This document shows, in pieces, positions 16,930 to 57,922 of a stretch of 64,000 bases of DNA. The DNA lies in NCBI GenBank assembly GCA_001692895.1, contig KV748191.1:1240001-1304000 (forward strand). The letters are read 5' to 3'. Position numbers and translations under genes: made by a program. The notes under the pieces were generated by a model that saw only the letters and a program-made list of their open reading frames with translations, was not told the DNA's origin and did no database searches. This stretch comes from Cenococcum geophilum 1.58 (Eukaryota; Ascomycota; Dothideomycetes; Gloniales; Gloniaceae). Each line of letters begins with the position of its first letter. Position 1 is the stretch's first letter.

Positions 16930-18400
16930 TACCTATAGGGCGGAGATAGGTCCCTTATTACCTATACTACCTAATATCTGCAAAAACCACCTCTCCTCAC
17001 ACAATAACAAAGACCTCATCTCTAAAAAGATCGTTACTAACCTGGCCCTAGGCCGTATACAGGCCACCAACTCTATAGTTACCTCACCCCTAGGCCTAGT
17101 GCCTAAGGCAGATAGCGGCTTCCGCCGTATTTACAACCTCTCTTCACCTAAGGGCTTCTTAGTTAATGACTCTATCGACCCAGCCTAGGCAGCACTACAC
17201 TATACCCGGATAGAGACTATACTAGCACACGTAATTACAGCTAGTAAAGGCTGCTACCTAGTTAAACGAGACATTAAAGATGCCTTCCAGATGGTGCCCA
17301 TTTCAGTACGGTCACGTTACCTACTTGGCTTTATCTGGAAGGGAGTTATATACGTCAAATACTGTCTGCCATTTAGCTTATAAACAGCCCTATTCCTTTT
17401 TAACTTATTCGCCGAAGGTCTCTACTAAATCCTAGCATAACAGATTAACTCCGCTATTAAGCACTACCTTAATAATTTTATATTCGTGGTTAAGTGTCTA
17501 ACTATACTGCCGTTACTAAGGGAGGTATACCTCTCAGTTACTAACNAGCTAGGGGTACCCTAAAATAATACTAAGAATATTAAAGGTACGGAGGCTAAAG
17601 TATTAGGTTACACTATTAACACTATAGCGATGGAGATAAAACTCTTACCAGCTAAGTAATAGAAAGCTATTAATTAGGTGACCAAAGCCCTCCAGAAGGG
17701 CTGGCTATTATTATAGCAAGCCTAATAACTGGTGGGCCGCCTAGCATAGTATGCAAGAGTTATCCGCCTTAGGCGCTTGTACTCTCGCTCCTTATAGGAC
17801 TTTATAACAAAATAGCCTACTAGGTTATTAAGAAATATGCCCTAACGCCTCCCCCTAGAGCTAAAAGAAGACCTTAACCTCTGGCTTAAGGTTCTTATAT
17901 CAAGTAACGGTATACTATTCTTTAATAACAAGGAGAGGCCGCAGTTTCACTTATTTACTAACGCCTTATTACTTAAAGGCTATAGAGGCTTCTATTTCAG
18001 CAAAGAGAACGGCCACTAGCCTAATTACGCGGCTTCCCTACCCCAGGCCCAGGCCTTCAGCTATTATCCCCCACTAGACTAGGCGGATAACTATATTAAC
18101 CTAAAAGAAATACATGCTATTGCGAAGGCATTTAAAAAGTGGTTATCGGTCTGGCGGTATAGGTCTCTCTATATTTATATAAACAATATAGTTACTTACA
18201 GCGGCATCTAAAATAATGTTATAAAAGGTTCTAGAAACCAATTACTCTAAGAGATACTTATATCCTTAATAACAAATGATATTACTATAATAACCATATA
18301 GGTCTCTAGCGCTAACAATAGGCTTACTAATGCTCTCTCGCGATTTAACCACAAGAAATTATTATTACTGTGCCCTAAGTGGCAAACAAATAACGGCTTC
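16930..18400 (+). pseudogene. YrA reverse transcriptase and RNase H
   Basis: The RT is of the DIRS type: F-R-R-I-Y-N-L-S-S-P-K-G near 17120, V-K-R-D-I-K-D-A-F near 17263-17290, C-L-P-F near 17364, and the catalytic box near 17467 reads Y-L-N-N-F-I-F-V, with both Asp changed to Asn. RNase H follows (L-K-E-I-H-A-I near 18103, the end A-L-S-R-F near 18333). The stops are mainly TAA/TAG at Gln sites. There is no protease or DDE integrase. An N at 17546 lies in the RT thumb region. Confidence 0.85.
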
Positions 18401-25142: not shown

Positions 25143-25298
25143 TTATTATTAAGTTACTAAAATTAAGAGATCCTATTACTGGGTAAGATTATAACGCGAT
25201 CTTAGTAATAGTAGATAAGCTTATAAAGTGGGGATACTTTATAGCGTATATAGAAGAAATATTGGTAGAAGATGTCGCTAAAATCTATATTAAGGAAG
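25143..25298 (+). pseudogene. GyA-1 segment 3: integrase core
   Basis: A 156-bp piece between LnA-1 and CoA-1, homologous to 51235-51390. It reads R-D-P-I-T-G then the V-D-K-L-x-K-W-G-Y-F segment of a gypsy integrase core (near 25210-25245). The last five bases, GGAAG, are the CoA-1 target, repeated at 31622-31626. Confidence 0.85.
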
Positions 25299-25398
25299 TG
25301 TATAATTACAGCACCTGTCGCACTAAACGCGTAAACGCGTACTCGGCGTACCGAACGCGTAAGTACGCGGTTAGTACGACAGGTGCTATAATTATACA
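25299..25398 (-). repeat. CoA-1 aberrant 100-bp terminal repeat
   Basis: In element orientation it contains the first about 80 bp of the LTR, with its ACGCGT sites, followed by about 20 bp that are the inverse of the LTR start. The block is thus bounded by a 20-bp inverted repeat (TGTATAATTA-AGCACCTGT type) and can fold as a hairpin. U3 remainder, R and U5 are absent. The same first 80 bp are present in full-length form at 31540-31621. Confidence 0.88.
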
Positions 25399-25648
25399 CT
25401 GACGGTACTTGGAAAATGAAACCACTTATGTATAGCCTCCGTAATTATCTTAATAGAACTATAAAACACATAAGAAAATATATAGGAAATCCCTCCTAAG
25501 GTGCCTTCTGGGTTGCCTTCCAAATGGTGCTCCAAGCTGGCCATAAATCCTGCTTAGAGTCCGTAAAATGAACTATACGGCCTTTTAACGGGCTGTAAAT
25601 GCACTATACGGCCTTCTAACGGGCCGTAACTAAACCGTAAATGCTCCG

Positions 25649-28600
25649 TTAGTCTCGCTCTACCTATTCTATAACCTTTAGGTTAAGCTTATTTATATTA
25701 ATTAGGGTTTTAAGAGCTTAACACGGCTTTGCCTTAGTTATAGCGTCTGCTAGGTTATCTCCGCTGCTAATCTATTTAACCTCTATAATCTTATATTATT
25801 TATAGACCTAACGTAAGCACATTAGGTCGACCATAAGCCTCTTCTCTTATATCGTACCTAGTTTAACTAGGCAGTCGTAAAGGGACTTTAAATCAGTGTA
25901 TAAAACTAGGGGTAACTACTCTAGTTATAGAATCTTCTAGACCGTTAATTTAATTGCGGCTGCTATATTAAATCCATAAGCTAGTATATATAGTTTAGAA
26001 GCTAGTACACTATAGGTTACTCGTTTACACTTAATTAAAGACTAGTATAGTATATTTACGTCCTAATTACGGTCTATAAGTATAATTACAAAGCCGATTT
26101 ATAATAATAGGTCTTTATTATTAGTAAAAGATGCGTTTATAAATACTAGTAGGCTAAGGGAATTTAGGTCTAGTAGTACAAAAGTAAGTCCCCTTACTGT
26201 ATTATTAATTTGCCACTAGATGCGCTTATTAAGCTACTTAATATTTTCTTCTTATAGGTCTACTGCCTGGGCCGCAAAGGACAGATCATAGGTAGATTTA
26301 GGTTAACAAACTGTGGCAATATAGGCGCCTCTTGCACGCTATACAGCGTATTAGTCCTTTATATTTATAGTCTTACGGGTCTCTCCGCGGGAACTAGTAA
26401 GGTCCGTAGGTTTTACTATAATAGGCTTTAGGTTTTAAGCTTAGCGTTCCTAAGTCAGCTTAATTAGGTTGCTCTTTTATATAATTAAGCCTCTATTAAA
26501 CTTAATTAGAGTCTGCTTAGTTAACTGCTCTTACGGCTTTATTAAGAACTTTACCTTTTATAGTTTAGTTTCTTTAGCATCCGCAAAGGTTTAGTCTGCT
26601 AGGAAGAGGGTATTATTAGTTTAAAGTCCAACAATACCAAGGCCGTTTAATAGGGTATATAAGAGGTAGGGGTTGTAGGTCAACTGTTCTATTTTAAGTT
26701 TACTAACGTGATATTAGTGGTATATCTTAAACTAATAGTTTCCAGCTTCTAGTACTCTATAAAGAGGTTTTATAACCCGTAAAATTATTCCTAGTTATAG
26801 GTTAAGCTTACGGGGTAGTTATATAAAGATGTCCCTACTTAGGTAGATATTAGACTACACGTAGGCTTATAAGATATCCCGTAAGTAAAGGGCTATAAGT
26901 TTAATTTGCTGTAATCTAGGCGTAAGTGTAAGTATAATCCATTAACTAACTTATTAAATTATAGGCGATTGCATAAGGACTAAACCCTTTTCCTAGTCGT
27001 TATAAGCTTATACAACGAGCCTTAATTTCTTAAAGGCTTTATTAGTACTAGGGTGCTTAATTTCGTTAATAAAGCGTAAGTTGAATATATAAACGCCTTG
27101 CGGAACATCTTTCTCCATTATAACCGCAAAGACGCCCTTTTCAAGTAGTCCGTTAATCTCTTTACGTCGTAAGTCCGTAAAAGGGGTTTCCTATACTAAA
27201 ACTAATATATCTATAGGCGGAAATTGCCTTGCGGATATACCTATAGAGGTTAGGTAATTCTTCGTTATAGGGTTCTTACGGGGGCGTCCTCGGCCACGCT
27301 TTACGGTAGGTTTAGTAGGTGTAAGCTTTATAGTATATAGGAATTAAATAAGCAACTTAATTATAAATCTATAGAAATTAAGTAATATAAATACATAAAA
27401 GTAGACCCCGAACTCCGAAGCCTATAACTCATTTCAAACATATCCGAGATATATAAGGGTAGTGCTAACGCTAGTGAAATAGGGCAATATATAGGGTCCG
27501 GTAGTCAGTTATAGTAGGTTTAGTGGGTTTCTGGGGAACCTTTAGGGTAGGTAAGGGTGCTTCTAGTTTATTTAATTCGGCGGGTGTTTCTAGTTTACCT
27601 AATTCGGCAGGTGCTTCTGGTTCGTCTAGCTTAACGTCATAGATGTTTTCAGACCAAAAATAGGGTTTTACGGACGTGCTTCTAAAGCTTATTAGTCCGC
27701 TAGGGAGCTATATACAGCAGGTCTCGTCTTCTACGGCTAGTAGACGGTAAAGTCTAGTCCAATTACTACTTTTACGCCATACAAGGACTTTAGAATTAAG
27801 CGGGAGGTTATATATTAGGGTTATATTAGGTCCGTTACGGTAGTGCAGAGCGTTATTAACAGTTTGTTTAGCCTATAATTTAACTATTTTGGCCATTACC
27901 TTCTATATTATAGCTGCTTATTCTATAATAGACGAGGCAGGGGGGCCTAGGTTACTTATCCTTAGGTAAGCTCCGTAAACCAAGAGGGTAGGTACTAGCC
28001 CATTAGGGCCAGCGGTGTTATTAACGGCTTTTACGGCCATCTATAAAGCCAGTTCCTTTTAAATATCCTTACACTTATCTATAATAATCTAGTAAGCTCT
28101 CTGTAAAGCTAGGTAAGCTCGCTTAATAAGCCTAACGGACCAATATACCTTAACTGGAACGGCTTTTATTAAAATAGCTATGGCCATAGCGTACTATTAG
28201 AATTCCTTACTAATAAAGTTCCTACCAGCGTTGTAGGTAATGTACTTAGGGGGTCTAACGTATATGTTAATCCAGTAGGTCTATAAAATATCCTAAGTAT
28301 ATTTTATAGATATATTTTATAACTAACGGGCGGCTTAATAGCGGGTTGCCTCGTTAATTATATATAATACTAGACTGCCGTTAATATACATAATGTCCAC
28401 GTATACTAAGTGGTTAAAGTTAAGGTCCTTATAAAGGGTAAACTTAAATCGGCCTAGGGAACGTCCGTATTTCTGGCAAAAGGAGTAGTATTTAATTAGG
28501 TGGTTAATTGCCTTCCTATTAACGTCGTTATATCTAGAGCGTTTAAGGACTCTATATAGCTTTTCAGCTAATAGGTAGCTAAAACGGCGGTATAGGCGGT

Positions 28601-30817
28601 GGATTTCAGTACTAGTAAGGTAATACGGGTTATAGTTAAAAGATTCCTAAATATAGGTCCGTAAAGTCTCTCCCTATATAAGGAACGGGTGTCCAAATCG
28701 TCATATAATTAGTAAGGTAATATGCTTACTTCCTAGGGCAGTTGCGGGGCCAATTAAGGTGTCTATAACATTGTTATAGTAAACCTATAACCTATCTATA
28801 TCCGTAAGGCAGAGTAGAAAAGGGGTGTCCGCTTTTACTATATAGAAGTTAACTGGGCTAATTGGAGTCTTAACTTTAACTAATCCAATTAATGCGGTTG
28901 AGCTAATGCCGAATTAGACGTTTACGGCCCCAGTTTGCATAGTATTGATATCCATATTATCATTTATGGTGGTCTTATATACAAGGTATTATCCATAACC
29001 TATAGTAGACTTCTTAAAGGCACCTATATCGATTATAACGCTATAGAATTCTTTAGGGGTGTAGCGTTCTGTGGTAATATATACAAATAGGTCCTGTTCG
29101 CGGTCCATAACGTCCGTAACGGGTCTAATAGGTATACTTACGGGCTAGTTTTCGGGTGCAATTAAGTGTGTAAAAGAGCGGTCGGTTAATACGGTCATAA
29201 TATTAAAGGCTTAGTTATCCATAAAAGGTCTAAAAGTAGTTAAAAACATCTCTAAGGTCTCCTATTCCTAAATATCTAAGTTAAAGTTAATTATAAGGGC
29301 TTCTATTAACTTGTTAAGAGACTCCTCCGCTTCCTCTCCTTTATAGTCTAAGATAAACTAGTTAATCTAATTATTAAATCTCTTCTTAGACTTATTATGT
29401 TCTTTCTAGGTATACCTTATAGACCAACATCCTTCCTTACTGCACATAAAGCACTTCTAGCTAGTTTATCTATAGGGGTATACTTTTATACGGGGGTTAC
29501 TATAGGGGTTACATGTAGGACTTAGTCGGTGCGGGTGCTGCTAGCGGTAGCGGCGGTCCGTAAAGTAGACGTCTAAGTCTATTTACGGATATTAAATATC
29601 TGTAATAAAGGCTTAAGTACTGCCTAGCGGGTTTAAGGCTTTATATATTATAATAGAGGACCGTAAATCGTTAATAAGGCCAGCTATAGTATCTACGGGC
29701 TTGTAATAGGCGTATTTATAAGGTTCTATTTCCTAGCAAGCCGTAATAAGTTTATTGTGTAGAAAGTCGTCTATTTAAAGTTTAATATTAAGACCGTGCT
29801 ATAGGTAGTAGAGGTCTTTAATAAGGATTTACAGGCACTCTATAGTTAATTTTTTAGTGTTCTTATCTATTACGGTCCGTAACTTAGTCACATTCCATTA
29901 GGTAAGGATATCACGCTTATATTCCGGTCCTTTAAAGTAGTTGCATATAGCTTCGCATAGCTTATTAAAGGGAACACTAAGGGGGTTACTCTTAAGGTTA
30001 GTGTAGTAGTAGTTAAGTACTAGGCCGCGCAGCATGGTAGAGTAGGCTTAGCTAAACTCCTATTTAGGAATATCGGCCTTCTAACTGAGGTCCATAAAGA
30101 TAGTTAGTTTAAAGTTAAAGTTATCGTTTTTACCGCTATACTTTAATTCGTTAGTATAGAGCTTAGCTAGGTTAGCTAGCTCCTTACTATAGGTCTTTAC
30201 TTAGGTAAGTTACAGATCTATAACTTATAGATCTATAGTTTGCGGATATATGGCTTACGGATATATAGTTTGCGGATATATAGCTTGCGGATCTATAACT
30301 TAAATAACAGAGGTAATTTGGTCCGTATTTTGGTTTACAGGGGTATTATAGTCCGTAATTTAGGTTATAGGGGTATTGTAGTCCATAGCGTGGTCCGTAA
30401 CTTAAGAGTAGGGTATATTTTAGCTAGTAAGGTTAGCTCTAAAACCGCTTAGGTCTATGGGATAAATTTAGTTAAGTAGGTTAGGTATAAGGCTAGCAAT
30501 TATATTAAGTTTAGAAGAAGTAAAGAGTTCCTTAGTTTCTTAGAACTAGTCTATTTTATTTAGTCCTTCTCGTATATTATATTATATAAGGACTATACAA
30601 TAGTAACTCGTTTATTCCTTTTAATCTATACACCTTAGCTATGTAAGAGGGTCCGTAGGTTACGGATAATAGTAGGGTTGTATACTTTAAAGATAGCTTC
30701 CATAAAGTCCGCAAAGTCTTCCTAGTATTGCTCCTATAGGTCGACGTTTATAAGCTTAAAATATTTATATTTAAGAACTTTAAATTTAATATAGTTGTTA
30801 ACGTCAGGTATAGACAT
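25649..30817 (-). pseudogene. CoA-1 gag-pol (copia order: gag, protease, integrase, RT, RNase H)
   Basis: One minus-strand frame from ATG at 30817 (M-S-I-P-D-V-N-N-Y) to TAA at 25649-25651, 1723 codons, exactly divisible by three. This copy keeps the ATG that CoA-2 has lost. By alignment with CoA-2 it holds a gag zinc knuckle near 29460, protease near 29050, integrase about 28600-27700, RT about 27400-26800 and RNase H about 26350-25650. The order integrase before RT defines Ty1/copia. Stops are TAA/TAG/TGA at Gln or Trp sites. It is about 260 bp longer than CoA-2, partly from extra gag repeats. Confidence 0.85.
30209..30303 (-). repeat. Short tandem repeat in CoA-1 gag
   Basis: About six units of 15-16 bp around the motif GCGGATATATAG lie in gag and would encode a repeated Gln/Ala-Ile-Asp-Pro-like peptide on the minus strand. 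CoA-2 has about four units at 52780-52837. The plus-strand open stretch at 30240-30452 is a shadow of this repeat. Confidence 0.75.
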
Positions 30818-31350
30818 AAGGTCGGCTCCCTACCTCTATTTTTCCTAGCCTTTATCAACTTGCTTCCTTAGGTCTGCTATACTATATAATGTAGTGTAGT
30901 ATATAGTGGGTGAAAGAGGTCTTATAGTGGTCCGTAAAGGCGGTTAATGTCCATAGCGGTTCGTAGGAGGGTAGGGGTTTTCCGTAAGGTCTTATAACGG
31001 TCCGTAGAGGCAATTAATAGGTCCGTAGTGGTTCGCAAAAGGGTAGGAAGTCTCTATAAGGGGTCTAAAAAGACGTCGAAGGTATTAAAAGAGGGTGTAG
31101 TAAGAATAGGGGTTTAAGGTTTAGAGGTAAATTAAGGGTAGGGGTTCCGTATAGGTCTATATTCGCGTCTATAACTTCTAGTAAACCGTACTAAGACTTA
31201 AATAAGTATATAGAGTTGGAGATAAGTCCGTAATCCCCGACTTCCGACCTTCTAGTAGGTCGTACTAGGAGTCTAAACGGGTAGTCGCTGTTAAGTATCG
31301 CTCGGGGGAGGTATTGAGTAATTGCTAATCTGTGCGCGCTTACTAATCAG

Positions 31351-31621
31351 TGTTTGTACTAACTTAATAGCACGAGTAAGTCAGATCCAGGGGCACGAAA
31401 TACGTATAGTATCGTATGCTCTTTTGGATAATAGTAACTGTTAATTGTATAAAGTAGACTACGTAGTCTATATACTAATGCGCCTCCCCCCTAATTAGTT
31501 AGTGCTTTAGAAGTGCACCAGACGCGTAAGCGGGTGGTTAGTGCACTAAACGCGTAAACGCGTACTCGGCGTACCGAACACGTAAGTACGCGGTTGGTAC
31601 GATAGGTGCTATAATTATATA
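31351..31621 (-). repeat. CoA-1 5' LTR (271 bp, reverse orientation)
   Basis: In element orientation it starts TATATAATTATAGCACC (TG mutated to TA) and ends GTACAAACA. It matches both CoA-2 LTRs over the full length, including the ACGCGT cluster and the AT-rich TATA-like segment. Confidence 0.9.
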
Positions 31622-31959
31622 GGAAGTATTTATAAAATATAAAGCACTAAGCAAAATTATATTAGATAGAGATCTAAGATTTATAACAGTATTTTAGGAG
31701 GTATTCTTAACGGAATAAGGGGTTAGGGTAGTAACTTCTACCGTATATTATTTATAGACAGACGGTTAAACGGAAAAATTAAATTAGACACTAGAGTAGT
31801 ATCTAAGGTACTATATTAATTACGCATAGAATAATTAGGTATTGTTGTTACTAGTTATATAGTTTATATATAATATAACACTATAAAAAGGAATAGGCAT
31901 ATTACTATTTAAGGCAAACTATAGATATAAGCTAAGGATATTATTATTACTATAATAAG
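31622..31959 (+). pseudogene. GyA-1 segment 4: integrase catalytic core
   Basis: Continues the integrase after CoA-1. The second catalytic Asp sits in D-R-D-L-R-F near 31668-31684, and the glutamate region reads Q-T-D-G near 31770 followed by E-K-L-N-x-T. It aligns with 51385-51566 joined to 57928-58080, across the CoA-2 insertion in the other copy. The last five bases, ATAAG, are the CoB target. Confidence 0.85.
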
Positions 31960-32519: not shown

Positions 32520-34340
32520 ATCCTATAAAACCGAAAATCCTACCTACCTTCAACGTACGACACCCCGTCAATTCTATACCTACTATAGCGTTAACCTACC
32601 TAAAGAAGTATAAGGAAGATATTAACCTAAAGACATAAAATAAAGCTATAATTAACCTTGCAAACGCTAATAAATAAGACTTAAATGGATTTTTATTATA
32701 CCGTATAGTACATTACAAGGATAGTAAATATAACAATACCGCGCTATAGGAATGTATAAAGGAGGACTTTGTTAGATAGATAAAAGAAACATAGGCCCCT
32801 ATAAACAAGGATATCGTATAGGACTTCCGTAACTTCCTTTAGGAGAATAGAGTATTTGTCCCTAAGGACGGGGGTACTATTAAAGACAATATTTAGGAGC
32901 AGGTTATTAACGCAAAAAAAGAGCACAAATAGACTCTATAAGAGATTAAGCACCAACTATATACTATAAGGAAGCTTAACTTATAATAAAACCTAAGTAA
33001 TACACCTTTAGAGACAAACCTACCTCCGCCTTTAACTCCTCTGTATCTAATTTAACCCGTAACCTTAACGTCGGATACTATACCCTAATAAGAGCAGGTA
33101 TAGGATCCTATTGCTTCGCGATTTAACGACCTTTAGACTCTACTAACTAGACCTACGTCCCCACTATAGCCTATAATGTAACTCCTACCTCCTCTACCTT
33201 AATTTTAAATTGGAGGTAGTTTAAAATTGCTTATAGAGCTTACGAAGCTCTACTCGGATTAGGAGAAAAAGTTTAGCGGGGAATTATATAATATTCTTAA
33301 TTCAAAACTACGTATCTTCTATAACTATTACTAGAAGGTAGAAATAGAGTCTAATTAATACTATAACGCCTATTCCGTTATGCTTAAGGGCCGAGCTAGT
33401 ACCTTCTATTATAATTATTTAGTAGGAAAAAGATACAATTTTAACCGTATAATATATATATTAAAATGCCACTTTAAAATAGAAGAGAATAAGTAGCAGT
33501 ATATATTAAAATAGAGAGAGACTACCTTCCTAAGGATTATTGCTATAAACCCAAGTATCCCTTAGCTTAATTATCTTTAAAAGCTCTTTAATCAACTTTA
33601 GATAATTTAGCATAGTTTATCCGAATTATATTAAGAGGATTTTAGCCTATATAATTAAGTCATTAGCATATACTAAGGCGTTAAAGAATATAACCTTACT
33701 CTCTTTAATCCTATAAATACTTATAAAGGAGTATATGCTTAATTAAGATCTTCTATTAGCACTACTCTACGCTCTTAAGAAGTATAACAATTTAACGCCT
33801 AACTCTAACCTACTTTAATTAACCCGCCCAGCCAATATAATTATAATTAGACTAATTAAATATATAGTGGCCGTAGTGGGCAATATAGCAGAGGGTATAA
33901 TTAATAACTATAAGGTAAAGATAGAGGTCCTTATAGAGGTTTATTTTAAAGTAATCGCTAGAAGAAGTGCTATATTTATAAGAAACTAAATTGCTAATTA
34001 ACTAGGCATTCTCTTAATAAGTGAAAGGAGGTATATAATAAGTTTCGCTAGAGTATAAGAAATGTTAGAAATTATAAGGCTACTATAGCTTACTTTTAAA
34101 GCTTTCTAGTTTAATATAAAGGCGTAAAAGATCTTAAGGGTAAGGTTAATAAGGCCAAACAGCTCCTTATAGATATAGAAATTAAGGACTACTCTCCTAA
34201 CCAATACTTCACTAAGTATAGTAAGGTAAATGGCATATAAACCGTTACTATTCTTAATAACTAATCTACGCTCCATTCTATTACAAAGTTAGATATCTTT
34301 AATAAGCTAAGGGAGAGTTCCGCGTTCTCCTTTAATAACA
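32520..34340 (+). pseudogene. CoB gag
   Basis: A long decayed frame upstream of protease. A knuckle-like motif at 33968 reads C-Y-I-Y-K-K-L-N-C, where the second Tyr stands at an expected Cys, parallel to C-F-V-C-S-K-E-G-C in CoA-2. The knuckle shares its frame with the protease and RT further on, so gag and pol were one reading frame. No start codon could be fixed; the frame can be followed back to about 32520. Confidence 0.7.
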
Positions 34341-37300
34341 GATACTTAGCAAACGTCTTCTATAGTATTATACCAGATACTAAAGCCGTAGGAGTATCTA
34401 TAGTAGGAGAACCTTAAGTTCGAGCCCTTTAGTAGCTTAATAGCTCTATCTAGATTAACTATTTAACGGCAGGCCAACACACGATTCGTTTTAGTAAGGG
34501 TACTATAATCTCTCTTAGCATAATTAGGGTCCAAACCCCCCTAGGGTACATCACTTTCTATATTATCCCTATAAACACCCTATTTCTATTTTGCATTAAA
34601 GATATAAACAAATTAGGCGTTAAGCTTAATAACCTTAAGAATATACTTATTTAGGGAGATAATTAGGTACCTATTATGCGCAAGTAGGGTTACCCCTAGT
34701 TGCTTCTTTATTAACTAGAAAAGAGTATTACTTAAAGCTACCTAACTAAGTTAGAGTTACGTTAACTACACCGTCGTTTTGGTTACCTATCCGTTTATTA
34801 ATTACTTAGGGTTCTTTAGCAAGCAGGCTATAAAGTTAAGGTTAAGGCAATTAAGCACCTTATAAAGTACTACTATAACTACTAAATAAACCAGAAGTCC
34901 CCTAGCCAATTTAAGTTCACCCTTAAAGATAACTATAACTTTAACTTCTACATTATCGTCGACGTTATATATCTTAGCGGTAAGCTAGTACTCTAAGTTA
35001 TTAACTTCTTAACCTCCTTCTAAGCCACACGTTTCTTAAAGAATATATTAGCTAGGAATATATAGGATACCCTTTAATTATGCTAGATTAATATCTACCT
35101 AGGACCCCCTAATTAAATTGTCTATAATATAGGAAAGAACTTCTTATCTATGGAATTTTAACAATAAATAAAGGCAATAGTAATTAAGGTTAAGGAAGTC
35201 CCTATTAAGGCACACAATAGTATTAAAAAAGTAGAATAATATCACACGCCATTACGCCGCGTATATAAGATTATCTCTTTAGAACTAGAGAACGCTAGCA
35301 AAAAACTTACCTTATAAATAGCTATTAAAGCCATTAATAATTCCGCTGGCCCAGATAGACTTATACCTACATTGCTAGTCTTTAGCGCCTACCCTTAAAT
35401 AACTAATAATTCTCTACTATTTTCCTCCGTTATATAATAAGCTAAGGCTATTTATAAGGCAATAAAGGAGGTATAACGTCTCTACGCTATATACTAGGTT
35501 AATAACGTACTAGGAATAAGAAATAGCCTAAATACCTTAACTACGCTTAACCTGCCACTCTAGTCTAAGGTACGCGTATAATATAAAAAGGGAGGATAGT
35601 TAGGCCTATATTAACTTATTATAATTAATAGTTAGACTTATACTATTTAAATGCCTTACAGACCTACTTAATTCTATTTAACCGTTATTAAGCCTTACTA
35701 TAAAGATAACAGTTCTAAGCCTTTATAGGATGCCATAGAAAATGCCCTAGAGAAGAGCTATAATCAACGTGCTCTAGAAGGCGACAACAATTCTAATATA
35801 ATTATAGTAGATACACCGCAACTATAACGCGGTAGAGGTTGCCTAAAGGGATTATAAAACCACTAACATCTTATTAATTTTAAAGAGTAATTTGTTGCCG
35901 CTATTAAGAACAAAATTAAGCTATTAATGGCCTTTATAACAACTAAGGAGAAGGCTAACTTTAAGCTTATAAAACAGCTCTAAAAGGAAGGTCGTATTAT
36001 AACTCTAGGAGCTTTTTTCTAAGCATCTAATAAGCAGGAGATTAATAGTCTTATTATAAAAGGAGTCTTTAAATTTAAGAAGTATAACCATACTAAGTTT
36101 AATAGAGTTCGTATCTTTAAGTTAAGAATAGTTAATAAGATTAAGAGTAAAGCTACTAACGCCCTATTTAAAAAATTAAGGCTTATTATCTAAGGCTATA
36201 ACGACAATAGTAAGGAGGTAATTCTTACGCAATCTCCTATAATTTAACGAGCTAGTTAGTAAGTTATTATTGCGCTAGCTCCCTCCTTAATAAAGAATAG
36301 AATGGCGGTTTATTTATAAGATATTACTTAAGCCTATACCCAATTAGAGACGCACCTTTAGTGCTTAATATTAGCATACCTTCTAGAGCAAATTCGCCAC
36401 CAATATCCTAAGGATATAATTATAGTTGTGCTTAAGCCATTATATAGAATCATAGAGGCAGAAACCTATTAGTGGGCTACCTATAGCAAGCACTATAAAG
36501 AGAAACTTTTAATAACTACTTCTATATTTAATCTATGCTTCCTTATCACAACTACGGGAACCCTATTTAGAATTGTTAGCATATAAACTAATAATACAAT
36601 TATCTTAGGAGACGACTGATTTTTAGCCCTTAAAGAAGATAAGCTAGTAAGGGTAAATCTTATAGCAAAGCTAAAGGAAAAGCTTAATTTAATAATACTA
36701 TTACTTTTTAATGGATATATCCTCTCCCTAAATGAGGATGTTATTACTTTACACCAGAAGGGTTAAGGTAAGAAGATTAACGTTATTAATATTAATTCCC
36801 TAAAGTAAGGATATGTAGAGTAACGCGCTTATAGAGCTTATATTACTTCTATCTATTAACCTAAGGCTTTATTTAATCTCTCTATTGCCGCCTAATACTA
36901 AGAACTAATTAAGGATAACGTTCTTGCCCTAAATAAACGTCTTTCCTAGTAAATAAACCATCTTAATTGGGGACTACTTTATATACCTATTAGTCTTCCT
37001 ACCGCTAAGCTCTTTATATTTATTAATAGATTATTTATAAATAATAAAGATTTTAGCTCCTAGTTAGGATATAAAATTATTATTACAAACAAATCTACTA
37101 AAGAAAACGACTTTATAATTTACGGCAACCTTATCTATTAAAGCTTAACTAAGAGTAAGCGCGTTACTTAAAGCGTTCTAGTGTTAAAGATATATAAAAT
37201 GGTTAGCGGAGTTAATATAGCAATTATAATTAGAACTACCCTAAAGATAATTATAGATTAACTCAAACTTCCTATTATCCCTATAATTATATATACCAAC

Positions 37301-37558
37301 TTATACTCCCTTTATAAGTGTTTAGTTAAGCTTAGTACTATAAAGAAGAAGCGCCTTATAATTAATATTATGGCACTTTATTAATCCTACAAACATTAAG
37401 AACTCTTTAAGATTTAATAGATTAATAGCTAAGATAACCTAGCAGATATAATAATAAAGGCGAACCTAAATAAGGCACTAGAGACGTTTATTAATACAAA
37501 TACTCTATATATATAAGTTAAAGGTTAGGTAAAAAGGGAGTCCCTAGAAATATCTTAG
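34341..37558 (+). pseudogene. CoB pol: protease, integrase, RT, RNase H
   Basis: The protease site reads D-T-K-A-V-G-V-S at 34376 (D-T-G family). A pre-integrase region (H-R-R-F-G-Y near 34770) and integrase core (V-D-V-I-Y near 34960, with Asp) follow. RT of the copia type shows L-Q-D-I near 36320 and L-G-D-D at 36605-36616, which may be the catalytic pair; the next codon is TGA where Trp fits. RNase H follows, ending in D-N-L-A-D near 37433-37450. Motifs at 33968, 34376 and 36611 are in the same frame. The end near 37558 is uncertain because the terminal codons are ambiguous. Confidence 0.8.
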
Positions 37559-44644: not shown

Positions 44645-45643
44645 GTTTCCTTCTTGGCTAGAAAAGAATCCGTTTTTTTATTATTAAGTTCCTATAAACC
44701 CTATTCTATAAGTGTCTACTCCTTAAAACGGACCTTCTTATAAACCTTTTTAAGACGGATTAACTAAGCGGACGCTACAAGACGAGATTTAAGGGCCCGT
44801 TGCTAAGTATTAGTAGCCTCCTATTTAGTATCCTAAGAACGGCGTAGTTCCGCTAGGGTAACGGACAGTTTATTATCTAGCTACGTAGTAGTAGATTAAA
44901 TATAAAACCCTAAGATAAATTAATTAGGGAACTAAATAACTATTAAGAATAATAGGTTATGTATATTTAGTATTAGAGATAGAGCGAATATTATAGGACA
45001 AATAAACATTTGCTTTAGTACACTTTAAGTAAAAAAACCGTTATTGTAAAGAAGGACTTGCTAGCGCAATATAGACTAACCCCTCTTTTAAATAGCAAGA
45101 ATATAAAGACGGTATAATCTTACCAAGAGATAATATTGCAGCGATAGTGCGAGCACGACAAATAGTTAAAGAGGAAGAAATTACTTTAGGTATAATAAGT
45201 AATAATATTAACTAAATTAATTAGACGGATATTATACCTCTAGTAAATAACTTAGAGATATTTANAATCTTTAAGGANNAANATANAAAGNAGGGAGATN
45301 GTATTACGGACGCTTTAAGTATAATATTATAACTACTTAGAAAAGAGTCGGAAGAAGCTAGTTAGTTAATTTAAGCACGGTCTAGGATAGAGCCGGTAGA
45401 ACTATTACGAACGCTTTAAGTACGATATTACGACTACTTAGAGAGGAGTCGGAAGAAGCTAGTTGGTTAATATAAGCACGGTCTAAGATGGAACCCATAG
45501 AACTATATAATGAGGAATGGTAACTAAGGTTATATAACGTGCTATATATTAAACGTAAGGAATAGGAGGAACTTACGTACCTTATATATAACACGTACCT
45601 TACGTATAAGGAGGATTTTATAGAAGTACGGTTGTGTATTTAA
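44645..45643 (+). pseudogene. GyA-1 segment 6: post-pol third reading frame
   Basis: GyA sequence after GyC, homologous to 58711-59243 joined to 61083-61429. It reads, in a frame interrupted by a tandem duplication and N bases, toward a C-terminal part E-E-L-x-Y-L-I-Y-N-T-Y-L-T-Y-K-E-D that stops at TAA 45641-45643, about 145 bp inside the LTR. The protein is not one I recognise; charged, helix-prone segments (R-L-L-R-E-E-S-E-E-A-S) are evident. Reading beyond the chromodomain into the LTR is seen in both copies. Confidence 0.6.
45303..45497 (+). repeat. 101-bp tandem duplication in GyA-1
   Basis: The segment starting ATTACGGACGCTTTAAG at 45303 is repeated from 45404, period 101 bp. GyA-2 has a single copy at about 61186. 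The period is not a multiple of three, so it breaks the third reading frame in this copy. Ten or so N bases lie just upstream (45265-45299). Confidence 0.85.
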
Positions 45644-51566: not shown

Positions 51567-51834
51567 TGTATAATTACAGCACCTATTGTACCAAACGCGT
51601 GCTTACGCGTTCGGTACACCAGGTACGCGTTTACGCGTTTAGTGCACCAACCACTCGCTTACGCGTCTGGTGCACTTATAAAGCACTAACTAATTAGGGG
51701 GGAGGTGCATCAGTATATAGACCACATAGTCTGCTTTATATAATTAATAGTCACTATCTAAATAAGCATACGATACTATATATATTTTATGCCCGTAGAT
51801 ACAACTCACTTATGCTATTAAGTTAGTACAAACA
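51567..51834 (+). repeat. CoA-2 5' LTR (268 bp)
   Basis: Starts TGTATAATTACAGCACC and ends TTAGTACAAACA. It contains five ACGCGT palindromes and the AT-rich TATA-like segment. It matches the 3' LTR over the same length with scattered transitions in both copies. Confidence 0.93.
51595..51683 (+). promoter_or_regulatory. ACGCGT cluster and TATA-like box in the CoA LTR
   Basis: ACGCGT occurs at 51595, 51605, 51625, 51633 and 51661, followed by TATAAAG at 51677. The 3' LTR keeps four sites (57684, 57694, 57714, 57722) and one mutated to ACGTGT. ACGCGT is the MluI cell-cycle box bound by the MBF factor in yeasts and other fungi; that this factor acts here is inference. The overlapping palindromes also give strong hairpin potential. 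Confidence 0.6.
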
Positions 51835-52277
51835 CTAATTAGTAAGCGCGCACAGATTAGCAATCACTTAATACCTCCCCCTAAGTAATATACACGACAG
51901 CGACCACCTATTTAGACTCATAGTACGACCTATTAGAAGGTCGGAAGTTAGGAATTACAGACTTATCTCCAACTCTATATACTTATTTAAGTCTTAGTAC
52001 GGTTTACTGGAAGTTATAAATATGAATATAGACCTATACGGAACCCCTATCCTTAACCCCCTTAAATCTTAAACCTTTTTAAACCTTTTATAGAAACTTT
52101 TTACCCTTCTACAAACTATTATAGACCCGTTAATTAATTTTATGGACCGTTTTAAGACCTCCCCCACCCGTTATAAGCTGCTACTACCTACTACGCACTA
52201 TACTATACTATACTATAGCAGATATCAGCAAGTAAGTTAGTAAAGGTTAAAAGAAGTAGAAATAAGGAGTTGACGTT

Positions 52278-55200
52278 ATATCTATAAACAATGTTAATAA
52301 CTATATTAGTTTCAAAATCCTTAAATATAAATACTTTAAGCTTATAAATAATAACCTATAGGAGTAATACCAGGAAGACTTTACGGACTTTACAGAAGCT
52401 ATTCTTAAGGCCTATAACCCTATTACTATCTGTAAACTATAAACCCTTTTATATAACCAAGGTATATAGGTTAAAAGGAATAAATAAGTTACTATTATAT
52501 AGTCCTTATATAATATAATATATAAAAAAAACCAAACGGAATAGACTAAAAAAGAAATCCTAGACTAGTTCTAAGAAACTAAGGAACTCTTTATTTCTTC
52601 TAAACTTAATATAATCGCTAGCCTTATACCTAACCCACTTAACTAAATTCGTTCTATAAACCTAAGCGGCTTTAGACTTAACCTTATTGGCTAAAATATA
52701 CCCTACTCTTAAGTTATAGATTATAACACCCCTATAAACTAAAATACGGACCAAATTACCCCCGCTATTTAAGTCACAGATCCGTAAGCTATATATCCGC
52801 AAGCTATAGATCTATAAGTTATAGATCCGCAACCTACCTAAGTAAAGACCTATGGTAAGGAGCTAGCTAACCTAGCTAAGCTTTATACTGACGAATCTAA
52901 GTACAGTAGTAAAAATGATAATTTTAACTTTAAACTAACTATCTTTACGGACCTCTGCTAAAAGGCTAATATTCCTAAATAAGAGTTTAGCTAAGCCTAC
53001 TCTACTATGCTACGCGGCCTAGCACTTAACTACTACTATACTAACCTTAAAAGCAACCCCTTTAGTGTCCCCTTTAATAAGCTATATAAAGCTACCCGTA
53101 ACTACTTTAAAGGACTAGAATATAGGCGTAATATCCTTACCTAATGGAATGCGACTAAGCTACGGACCGTAATTAACAAGAATACTAAAAAATCGACTAT
53201 AGAGTGTCTATAAATCCTTATTAAAGACCTCCGGCACTTATAGTACGGCCTTAACGCTAAGCTTTAAATAGACAACTTCCTATATAATAAACTTATTACG
53301 GCTTGCTAGGAAGTAGAGCCCTATAAATACGCCTATTATAAGCCTACAGATACCTTAGCTGGCCTTATTAATAACTTACGCTCCTCTATTATAACGTATA
53401 AAGTCTTAAACCCACTAGGCAGCACTTAAGCCTTCGCCACGGATATTTAATATCCGTAGATAAACTTAGACGTCCACTTTATGGACCGCCGTTACCGCTA
53501 GCAGCACCCATACTAACTAAGTCCCACCTATAACCCCCGCAGCAACTCCTATATAAAAGTATACCCCCGCAGATAAACAAGCTAGAAATGCTTTGTGTGT
53601 AGTAAGGAAGGATGTTAGTCTATAAGGTATACCTAGAAAGAATATAATAGGTTTAAGAAGAGATTTAATAAATGGATTAGCTAGTTTATCTTAAAATATA
53701 AAGAAGAGGAAGAAGAGGAGCCCCCTAATAAGTTAATAGAAGCCCTTATAATTAACTTTAACCTAAATAACTAGGAATAGAAGACCCTAGAGACATTTCT
53801 AACTACTTTTAGACCTTTTACGGACAGCTAAGCCTTTAATATTACGACCGTATTAGCCGACCGTTCCTTTATATACTTAGTTACGCCTAAAAACTATTTT
53901 GTAAGTACCCCCGTTATAGATATTATAGATTATAAGTAGGACCTATTTGTATATATTACCACAGAACGCTATACCCCTAAGGAATTCTATGGTATTATAA
54001 TTAACACAGGCACCTTTAAGAAGTCTACTGTAGGCTATAGATAATACCTCGTATATAGGACTACCGCAAATAATAATACGGATATTAATATTACGTAAAC
54101 TAGGGCTGTAAACGTCTAATTCGGCATTAGCTTAACTGCATTAATTAGATTAGTTGCAGTTAAGACCCTAATTAGCCTAGTTAACTTCTATATAGTAAAA
54201 GCAGACACCCCTTTCTTACTTTGCCTTATGGACATAAATAGGTTATAGGTTTACTATAACAATATTACGGACACCTTAATTGGCCCTATAACTGCCCTAG
54301 GAAGTAAGTATATTACCCTACTAATTATATAATAATTTAGACACCCGTTCCTTATATAGGGAGAGACTTTACGGACCTACATTTAGGAATCTTTTAACTA
54401 TAACCTGTACTACCTTACCAGTACAGAGATCTACCGTCTGTACTACCGTTTCGGCTACCTGTTAGCTAAAAAGCTATATAGAGTCCTTAAACGCTCTAGA
54501 CACGATAACGTTAATAGGAAGGCAGTTAATTACCTAACTAAATACTGCTCCTTTTGCTAGAAATATGGACGTTCCCTAGGCCGATTTAAGTTTACCCTTT
54601 ATAAGGACCTTAACTTTAACCACTTAGTGTACGTAGACATTATATATATTAACGGCAGCCTAGTATTATATATAATTAACGAGGCAACCCGCTACTAAGC
54701 CGCCTATTAGTTGCAAAATATATCCGCAAAGTATACTTAGGATATTTTACGGACCTGCTAGATTAATACGTACGTTAGACCTCCTGAGTATATTACCTAT
54801 AACGCTAGTAAAAACTTCATTAGTAAGGAATTTTAGTAGTATGCTACGGCTATAGCTATATTAATAAAAGCTGTTCTAGTTAAGGCGTATTAGTTTATTA
54901 GGCTTATTAAGCGAGCTTACCTAGCTCTATAGAGAGCTTATTAGATTATTACGGACGAGTATAAGGACATTTAAAAGAAACTAGCTTTATAGATGGCCGT
55001 AAAAGCCGTTAATAACACCGCTAGCCCTAACGGACTAGTACCTACCCTCTTAGTTTATAGAGCCTACCTAAGAATAAGCAACCTAAGCCCCCTTACCCTA
55101 TCTATTACGGAACGAGCAGCTATAATACGGAAGGTAATGGCTAAAATAGTTAAATTACGGGCTAAATAAACTATTAATAACGCCCTATACTACCGTAATG

Positions 55201-57185
55201 GACCTAATATAACCTTAGTATATAACCTCCCGCTTAACTCTAAAGTCCTTATATAGCGTAAAAGCGGTAGTTAGAATAGACCTTACCGTCTACTAGCCGT
55301 AGAAAACGAGATATACTGTATATAGCTTCCTAGCGGGCTAACTAGCTTCAGAAGCACGTCCGTAAAACCCTACTTTTGGCCTAAAAATACTTATAACGTC
55401 AAGCTAGACGAACTAAAAGCAACCGCTAAATTAGATAAACTAGAAATAACTACCAAATTAGATAAACTAGAGACATCTTTACCTACCCTAGAGGTCCCCT
55501 AAAAACCTACTAAACCTACTAAACCTGCCGTAAAGCGTGGCCGAGAACGCCCCTATAAGAATCCTATAACGGAGAACTACCTAACCTCTATAGGCACATC
55601 TGTAAAGCAATCTCCGCCTATAAATATATTAGTTCTAGTATAGGAAACCCCTTTTACGGACTTATAGCATAAAGAGATTAACGGACTACTTAAAAAGGGT
55701 ATCTTTGTAATTATAACGGAGAGAGACGTTCTGTAAGGCGTCCATATATTTAACTTACGCTTTATTAATAAAATTAAGCACCCTAGTACTAATAAAGCCT
55801 TTAAGAAATTAAGGCTTATTATATAAGCTTATAATAACTAGGGAAAGAACCTAGTCCTTACATAATCGCCTATAATTTAATAGGTTAGTTAACGGATTAT
55901 ACTCGCACTTACGCCTAGACTATAGTAAACTAAATCTATAGCTCTTTACTTACGGGATATTTTATAAGCCTATGTGCAGTCTAATACCTACCTAAGTAGG
56001 GATATCTTTATACGACTACCCTATAAGCTTAACCTATAACTAGGAATAATTTTATAGGTTATAAAACCTCTTTACAGAGTACTAGAAGCCGAAAACTATT
56101 AATTTAAGATATACTACTAGCACTACGTTAATAAACTTAAAATAGAATAGTTAACCTATAACCCCTACCTCCTATACAGCCTATTAAACGGCCTTAGTAT
56201 TATTAGACTCTAAATAGATAATACCCTCTTCTTAGCAGACTGGACATTTACGGACGCTAAAGAGACTAAATTATAAGAAGCTAAGTTCCTGGCAAAGCTA
56301 TAAGAGTAGTTAACTAAGTAAACTCCAATTAAGTTTAACGGAGGCTTAATTATATAAAAGGGCAACTTAATCTAGCTAACCTAGGAACGCTAAGCTTAAA
56401 ACCTAAAGCTTATTATAGTAAAGCCTATAGACCTTACTAGTTCCCGCGGAGAGACCTATAAGACTGTAAATATAAAGGACTAATATGCTGCACAGCGTGT
56501 AAGAGGCGCCTATATTGCTATAGTCTGCCAACCCAAATCTGCCTACGACTTGTCCTTTGCGGCCCAGGTAGTAGATTTATAAGAAGAAAATATTAAGCAG
56601 CTTAATAAGCGTATTTAGTAGCAAATTAATAATGCAGTAAGGGGACTTACTTTTATACCACTAAACCTAAGTTCCCTTAGCTTACTAGTATTTATAGACG
56701 CCTCCTTTGCTAATAACAAAGACCTATCATTATAAATTGGCTTTATAATTGTACTTACGGACCGCAATTAGGACGCAAATATACTATATTAGTCTTTAAT
56801 TAAGTGTAAATAAGTAACCCGTAGTGTACTAGCTTCTAAACTATATATACTAGCTTATAGATTTAATATAGCAGCCGCAATTAAATTAACGGTCTAGAAG
56901 ATTCTATAACTAGAGCAGTTACCCCTAGTTTTATATACCAATTTAAAGTCCCTTTATAACTGCCTAGTTAAACTAGGTATAATATAAGAAAAGAGGCTTA
57001 TGGTCGACCTAATATGCTTATATTAGGCCTATAAATAACGTAAGATTATAGAGGTTAAATAGATCAGTAGCGGAGATAACCTAGCGGACGCTATAACTAA
57101 GGTAAAGCCGTATTAAGCCCTTAAAACCCTAATTAACACAAATAAGCTTAACCTAAAAGTTATAAAATGGGTAGAATGGGACTAA
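52278..57185 (+). pseudogene. CoA-2 gag-pol
   Basis: One frame of 1636 codons from ATA at 52278 (the position of the CoA-1 ATG, mutated) to TAA at 57183-57185. In frame are the gag knuckle C-F-V-C-S-K-E-G-C at 53589, protease N-T-G-T at 54003 (expected D-T-G), the pre-integrase zinc segment C-S-F-C at 54546 with the integrase core after it, copia RT about 55660-56250 (end segment D-N-T-L-F-L-A-D near 56216) and RNase H about 56690-57180 (D-A-S-F-A near 56698, D-N-L-A-D-A near 57077). Order and motifs define Ty1/copia. Stops are mostly TAA/TAG at Gln sites. An unusual feature is the long single frame with no gag/pol break. Confidence 0.87.
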
Positions 57186-57351
57186 TAAAGTACCTATGGT
57201 ACGCCTACGGCCTATTAGAAGGCCGTACGGCTTATTATACGGCCTATTCTACGGACCGTAAGCTATTAGGTAGAAAAACGGTGGAAAGCTGTAATAGAAC
57301 TTAGTAGACTTATATAACCTACTAAATTCTACTATATTCTACTATAGTAGT

Positions 57352-57432
57352 CAAATTAACTAATTATAATTTTCCATACCGGGCATGGAAAATTGCCATT
57401 GGCTCGCTTAGCACTAGCGCCTTAGCGGCCCT
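57352..57432 (+). repeat. Hairpin block shared by CoA-2 and CoB (CoA-2 copy)
   Basis: Contains a perfect 10-bp stem, AATTTTCCAT and ATGGAAAATT, around a 7-base loop (57368-57394), followed by GGCTCGCTTAGC and TAGCGCCTTAGCGGCCCT. It corresponds to 37641-37720 in CoB. CoA-1 lacks it: its 3' region is about 220 bp shorter. Confidence 0.78.
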
Positions 57433-57654
57433 TAAAATCTAACTTATGGCTCGTCTACTACCTGTTAAAAGGCCGTACGGTTTATTTTACGGACCGTAAG
57501 TAGGACTTACGGCTAGCTTAAGGTACCGTTTGGAAGGCAGCCTAGACGGCACCTTAGGGGAGATTTCCTATGTATTTTCCTTTATGTTTTATGGTTTTAT
57601 TAAAGCAATTACGGAGGCTATACACAGATAGTTTTATTTTTTAAGTACTGCTAG

Positions 57655-57922
57655 TGTATAATTACAGCACCTGTTGTACTAAACGCGTGCTTACGCGTTC
57701 GGTACACCAGGTACGCGTTTACGCGTTTAGTGCACTAACTACTCGCTTACGTGTCTGGTGCACTTATAAAGCACTAACTAATTAGGGGGGAGGTGTATCA
57801 GTATATAGACCACGTAGTCTGCTTTATATAATCGACAGTCACTATCTAAACAAGTATACGATACTACATGTATTTCGTGCCCGTGGATATGACTCACTTA
57901 TACTATTAAGTTAGTACGAACA
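57655..57922 (+). repeat. CoA-2 3' LTR (268 bp)
   Basis: Starts TGTATAATTACAGCACC and ends TTAGTACGAACA, followed by the target copy CTAAG. No clear polypurine tract precedes it; the bases before are TTTTTTAAGTACTGCTAG. Confidence 0.93.

Follow-up and report, generated by a model that had tools for sequence, protein, structure and literature searches.

Two ends of the same kind

How can an LTR retrotransposon come to carry the same edge of its LTR at both of its ends, and was such an end made before or after the element entered the chromosome? The question is raised by an old, damaged Ty1/Copia element of Cenococcum geophilum 1.58, which occupies positions 25299-31621 on the minus strand of the window (the whole stretch of 64,000 nucleotides that was analysed), and whose 3′ LTR measures 100 bp versus 271 bp for the 5′ LTR, with 192 bp of LTR gone. 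The mirrored end is most likely a one-off copying error, not a new kind of element, and the two stages at which the error could have occurred leave much the same sequence behind.

Anatomy of the mirrored copy

The earlier note had described a normal 5′ LTR and, at the other terminus, a 100-bp end closing in an inverted copy of the LTR start. This observation is real and was confirmed, the two termini being a 271-bp 5′ LTR and a block composed of U3[1-79] plus 21 nt of inverted U3[1-21] (Table 1). Read in the sense direction, the block at 25299-25398 consists of U3[1-79] and then GACAGGTGCTGTAATTATACA, which agrees with U3[1-21] in reverse complement at all but one base; a 20/21 match sitting at the very terminus of the mirrored end is no chance match. 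Compared with the 5′ LTR of the same element, the U3[1-79] part shows four differences, all of them transitions. A repeat search returned the block as an inverted repeat with 37-nt arms, 92% complementary, that take in two flanking bases on each side, and in a DNA fold the 100 bp form one long hairpin.

Both ends of the copy are of the U3 type. The wording that both read TGTATAATTA holds if a G-to-A transition is allowed but not literally, as the right end today is TATATAATTA through a transition of the kind left by repeat-induced point mutation (RIP). The placement of the 5′ LTR at the right and of the 3′ LTR at the left was borne out, because the polyprotein alignment runs on the minus strand.

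Table 1. Features of the mirrored Copia copy and its target site, in window coordinates
Feature	Position	Strand	Evidence
Target duplication GGAAG, left copy	25294..25298	.	Sequence, and unoccupied target in a host repeat related to the flanks
Inverted copy of U3 positions 1-21 (21 nt), new outer terminus of the 3′ LTR	25299..25319	-	Agreement at 20/21 positions with the neighbouring U3[1-21] in reverse complement
U3 positions 1-79, remnant of the 3′ LTR	25320..25398	-	Direct repeat of 25320-25396 with 31543-31619 (96%); 4 transitions versus the 5′ LTR over 79 bp
U3[66-79], arm on the primer side of the natural inverted repeat, 3′ end at the switch point	25320..25333	-	Fold-back ranking and DNA fold of the block
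U3[22-35], arm on the template side of that repeat	25364..25377	-	Fold-back ranking
Copia interior with broken polyprotein similarity at 30880-30563, 30527-27498 and 27319-25652	25399..31350	-	tblastn with a 1617-aa relative (PF00665, PF07727)
Normal 5′ LTR, 271 bp	31351..31621	-	U3 start and U5 end located
Target duplication GGAAG, right copy	31622..31626	.	Sequence

The empty site is preserved in a host repeat, L009:1110-1335, which aligns without gaps to the joined flanks of the element (204 of 226 positions identical) and holds a single target copy (AGAAG). The flanks at 25188-25298 and 31622-31741 place the Copia copy as nested in another repeat, to which the L009 sequence is related; that L009 copy carries another Copia LTR from L009:1501, at a position different from the window insertion.

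The family to which the copy belongs

The genome assembly comprises 177 Mb in 162 contigs. TpA/ApT is 1.72 and (CpA+TpG)/(ApC+GpT) is 0.47, and such dinucleotide ratios are the pattern of RIP. A fungal host is suggested by these ratios together with the fungal names among the protein relatives listed. The interior at 25399-31350 contains no open reading frame of at least 150 aa. With X-masked frames, Pfam returned 0 families for either strand (E up to 0.001 for the minus strand, up to 1 for the plus strand), and a scan of six minus-strand pieces gave just weak unrelated families under the cut-off (WGR, LD_cluster3 and AT_hook). Searches of solved structures and of Rfam gave no match. RIP damage is the likely reason for the empty Pfam and structure results, since the protein search was clear: with residues 960-1320 of the frame carrying X at stops scored, 345 of 1,893 candidate proteins reached E ≤ 0.001, and the top one (PF00665 plus PF07727) had 69% identity over the searched region. 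This 1617-aa relative aligns collinearly on the minus strand from 30880 to 25652, which puts integrase ahead of reverse transcriptase (RVT_2). The upstream coding part also contains about seven imperfect tandem units of 15 bp (30210-30314). Elsewhere in the window, a distant and different Copia element on the plus strand (33224-37540) is about 31% identical to the same query protein.

The element thus resembles the Ty1/Copia elements of filamentous fungi in its polyprotein with integrase before RVT_2, its TG...CA LTRs and its 5-bp duplication, and is unlike them in lacking a 3′ LTR of normal form. Seven other family copies, chosen for having both ends in hand (six pairs of loci picked by eye plus the window copy at 51567-57922), have LTRs of 268 or 271 bp that start with TRTATAATTA and end with AAYA, and matching 5-bp flanks in 7/7. 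The copy at 51567-57922, on the plus strand, has normal LTRs and the duplication CTAAG. Both LTRs are present in 7/7 of these relatives, whereas the mirrored copy has no direct LTR pair; the 5-bp target duplication was found in 8/8 elements compared at both ends, the mirrored copy included. The missing normal 3′ LTR is a defect of this one copy. The interior boundaries are alike across the compared copies, with no obvious purine tract at the 3′ boundary.

Recurrence in the genome

A mobile variant with a recurring 100-bp end had been considered, and nothing in the junction searches points to one. The family is abundant, the U3-start pattern occurring at 1,406 places with at most one mismatch (746 forward, 660 reverse), and the junction was found once among them. 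A RIP-tolerant pattern of the junction, which demands at least 8 copied nt and which divergent subfamilies may escape, matched 99 places within two mismatches: one at 0, which is the mirrored copy, none at 1, and 98 at 2, where 94 look like a normal LTR stretch (YARTTRRTRYAYTAAA...) and four read TAYTTRGTRTATTAA. Accordingly, no further copy with the same U3[79] junction was found at 0 or 1 mismatch genome-wide, nor was a cloud of inexact fold-backs seen at that level at the U3[79] hairpin. Junctions were also predicted for two other high-ranking fold-back sites. The one for U3[107] retrieved just the mirrored copy, at 1 mismatch. The one for U3[52] matched 265 places; those listed, 100 in number, all had 1 mismatch and resembled the normal LTR stretch, and the mismatch order of the table implies that there is no place at 0.

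The same picture came from pairs of LTR starts. The 83 loci and the window, 84 sources in all, contain 80 distinct U3-like starts, and the mirrored locus is the only one where such a start has a true partner on the opposite strand within 600 bp. Two further pairs closer than 600 bp, at L034 and L081, appeared at the 3-mismatch level and were dropped, as one side alone is an LTR by alignment. Inspection by eye of the U3-start places listed on contigs C1 to C4 found none with an opposite-strand neighbour within 1 kb. As far as searches of the U3[79], U3[107] and U3[52] junctions reach, the mirrored end appears to be a single copy and not a mobile family. A mirrored LTR end was not described in the titles or abstract openings of the literature matches listed. 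One family copy, at L043:1494-1505, has a flank ending in CTTCC, the same 5-mer as the GGAAG target in sense orientation, in different surroundings.

These results also bear on the suggestion that the block is a separate, MITE-like inverted-repeat element next to a normal LTR. By itself it does resemble a 100-bp palindrome with matching termini; however, U3 in its proper place makes up 79 of the 100 bp and gives way to the interior at the boundary seen in other copies, no normal 3′ LTR is left beside it, and the junction was found once. Of 1,159 candidates, 40 were scored, and none but the block itself matched the 100 bp over their full length. This explanation is the most improbable of those considered.

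The switch point

The point at which the sequence turns back, U3[79], lies on a natural inverted repeat in which the 14 nt of U3[66-79] pair imperfectly with U3[22-35]. On a simple 14-nt pairing score, with ties broken arbitrarily, U3[79] ranks 2, 5, 3, 2, 221 and 1 among about 225 candidate 3′ ends in six family LTRs. The switch site is therefore among the five best fold-back priming sites in 5/6 LTRs, and the outlier (221), L015, differs at the 3′ base of the primer. Moreover, the primer-side bases are kept through U3 position 79 and the template is followed from there on, as predicted for fold-back priming. In an energy fold of the native U3, taken from the element's 5′ LTR, the best structure is without this stem.

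Because the junction falls at a high-ranking inverted repeat and the primer was kept before the template was copied, fold-back (snap-back) priming is well supported as the probable origin of the mirrored end. Autointegration was rejected, the inverted piece being 21 nt long and ending at the hairpin. The snap-back route put forward earlier is favoured by the inverted repeat at the switch and by its high rank in 5/6 LTRs, but its plain, one-strand form falls short: such a snap-back would be expected to run past U3[1] into the interior, so that the template strand would need to have its free 5′ end at U3[1].

Timing of the copying

The tail and its source arm differ only at U3[11], where the tail carries C and the source arm T. 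This is a CpA site, occupied by 39 C, 40 T and 1 A among the 80 U3-like starts, a count that takes in both arms of the mirrored block and at least two chance matches. As RIP turns C into T at such a site, the copying preceded that RIP-type change. The timing fits an early event and speaks against an in-vitro artefact, on the basis of one base.

An assembly or library artefact, e.g., an in-vitro hairpin extension joined into the contig, could be suspected from a hairpin-prone sequence met once only. Nevertheless, a RIP-type base between the arms is not expected from in-vitro copying of the same locus, the terminus and the duplication are exact, and Ns are absent from 25299-31621 (the nearest are at 17546 and 45265), which together make an artefact improbable. 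A cluster of single ambiguous bases occupies 45265-45300 of the window.

Before or after integration

The intact GGAAG duplication had been taken as proof that integrase used the mirrored end, and this argument does not hold. Where the inverted U3 start meets the interior, the letters are ACA|CT, and a normal LTR end followed by the target also reads ACA|CT, ACA being common to both LTR ends and CT to the first two bases of interior and target. A normal 3′ LTR mended later by fold-back would therefore show an identical sequence and an identical duplication. The target duplication is kept under either route and therefore does not separate them.

According to the first route, the copy at 25299-31621 is a one-off defective member of a high-copy Ty1/Copia family whose 3′ end arose from fold-back priming during reverse transcription, a proposal to which an even chance is given. 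The plus strand, on copying the U3 of the 3′ LTR, would displace plus-strand strong-stop DNA at its 5′ end; the growing 3′ end would halt at U3[79] and, by way of the natural inverted repeat, anneal to U3[22-35] of the displaced strand. Copying of the displaced strand as far as its free 5′ end at U3[1] would then yield a duplex U3-type end, integrase would join the two U3-type ends over a 5-bp stagger, and host gap repair would fill in the missing complement. That the Copia integrase performed such a concerted integration of two U3-type ends, one of them made by a plus-strand switch onto the displaced strong-stop strand through the U3 hairpin, is put just short of even.

According to the second route, which is a serious but somewhat doubtful contender, a break or a stall at U3[79] in a normal inserted 3′ LTR left a 3′ end that folded back on the inverted repeat, 21-23 nt were copied, and the end was rejoined via ACACT at the border of LTR and flank, with deletion of 192 bp of LTR. 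The imperfect 14-nt repeat, the 30 nt between its arms and the 5-nt match form the same signature as the fold-backs at yeast breaks in the excerpt of PMC11724301, and replication template switching that creates hairpins is described in the part of PMC8794818 consulted. This repair, however, requires the end of the copy and the end of the deletion to coincide exactly at the LTR terminus, beside 82 other registers with a match of at least 5 nt (counted with the RIP-mutated 5′ LTR standing in for the lost part), and it has to come before the RIP-type change on the source arm. The absence of inexact fold-backs at the U3[79] hairpin at 0 or 1 mismatch also counts against it.

Reverse-transcription fold-back is moderately favoured because the register at the LTR terminus is exact, which it explains without an additional assumption. 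It gains support from the copied segment ending at U3[1], the expected strong-stop 5′ end, with GGAAG directly outside, as well as from the high rank of U3[79] in family LTRs, the lack of inexact fold-backs (0 or 1 mismatch) at this hairpin, and copying that predates the RIP-type change at U3[11]. Under this route, the two extra matching bases would be a mild coincidence of about 15%, as target sites start with CT in 11 of 67 terminal flanks, a set that includes the mirrored copy and counts some insertions at both ends.

Several points count against it. A later, microhomology-mediated repair would use just such a 5-nt match as the ACACT of the outer junction, a second mirrored end was not found among the junctions searched, the forked intermediate would have to be completed after integration, and the timing evidence is one base. 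Furthermore, the strong-stop 5′ end is assumed from the LTR boundary, because the sense sequence adjoining U3[1], CATTTTCCAAGTACCGTCAG, has no clear polypurine tract. The anatomy, the inverted repeat at the switch, the duplication and the one RIP-type difference between tail and source are seen directly, and the exact terminus of the mirrored end is seen to within the two bases common to interior and target; we infer the enzyme, the timing before integration and the use of the mirrored end by integrase. The probabilities expressed here are judgements and not computed posteriors.

Relation to known systems

The fold-back insertions at yeast breaks, as presented in the excerpt of PMC11724301, involve an imperfect 10-bp inverted repeat with 41 bp between its copies, and their second end has 0-5 bp (median 2) in common with the inverted sequence. 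The mirrored end is like these inversions in its imperfect inverted repeat near the end, its short inverted copy and its microhomology at the second junction, so that both an inverted repeat at the switch and a match of 0-5 nt, as in that excerpt, are found here. It is unlike them in that its outer junction is an LTR terminus with a target duplication, at a place where no break is known. A second parallel is the TAR-dependent self-priming of retroviral minus-strand strong-stop DNA, with its aberrant products, in work cited in the part of PMC4668388 consulted. There, too, a hairpin allows the nascent strand to prime on itself; however, the retroviral case in that part concerns minus-strand strong-stop DNA, whereas the Copia case would involve the plus strand and an integrated product.

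Meaning for the element and its genome

If the end was made after integration, the locus would be a clean case of short fold-back repair within a genome rich in repeats and mutated by RIP, and a caution that a preserved target duplication is no proof of integrase having used that end. If the end was made before integration, the locus would document, in nature, a strand transfer driven by a hairpin during reverse transcription and the acceptance of two U3-type ends by an integrase. Were such two-U3-end integration true, the U5 terminus would not be strictly required for the integration of such elements.
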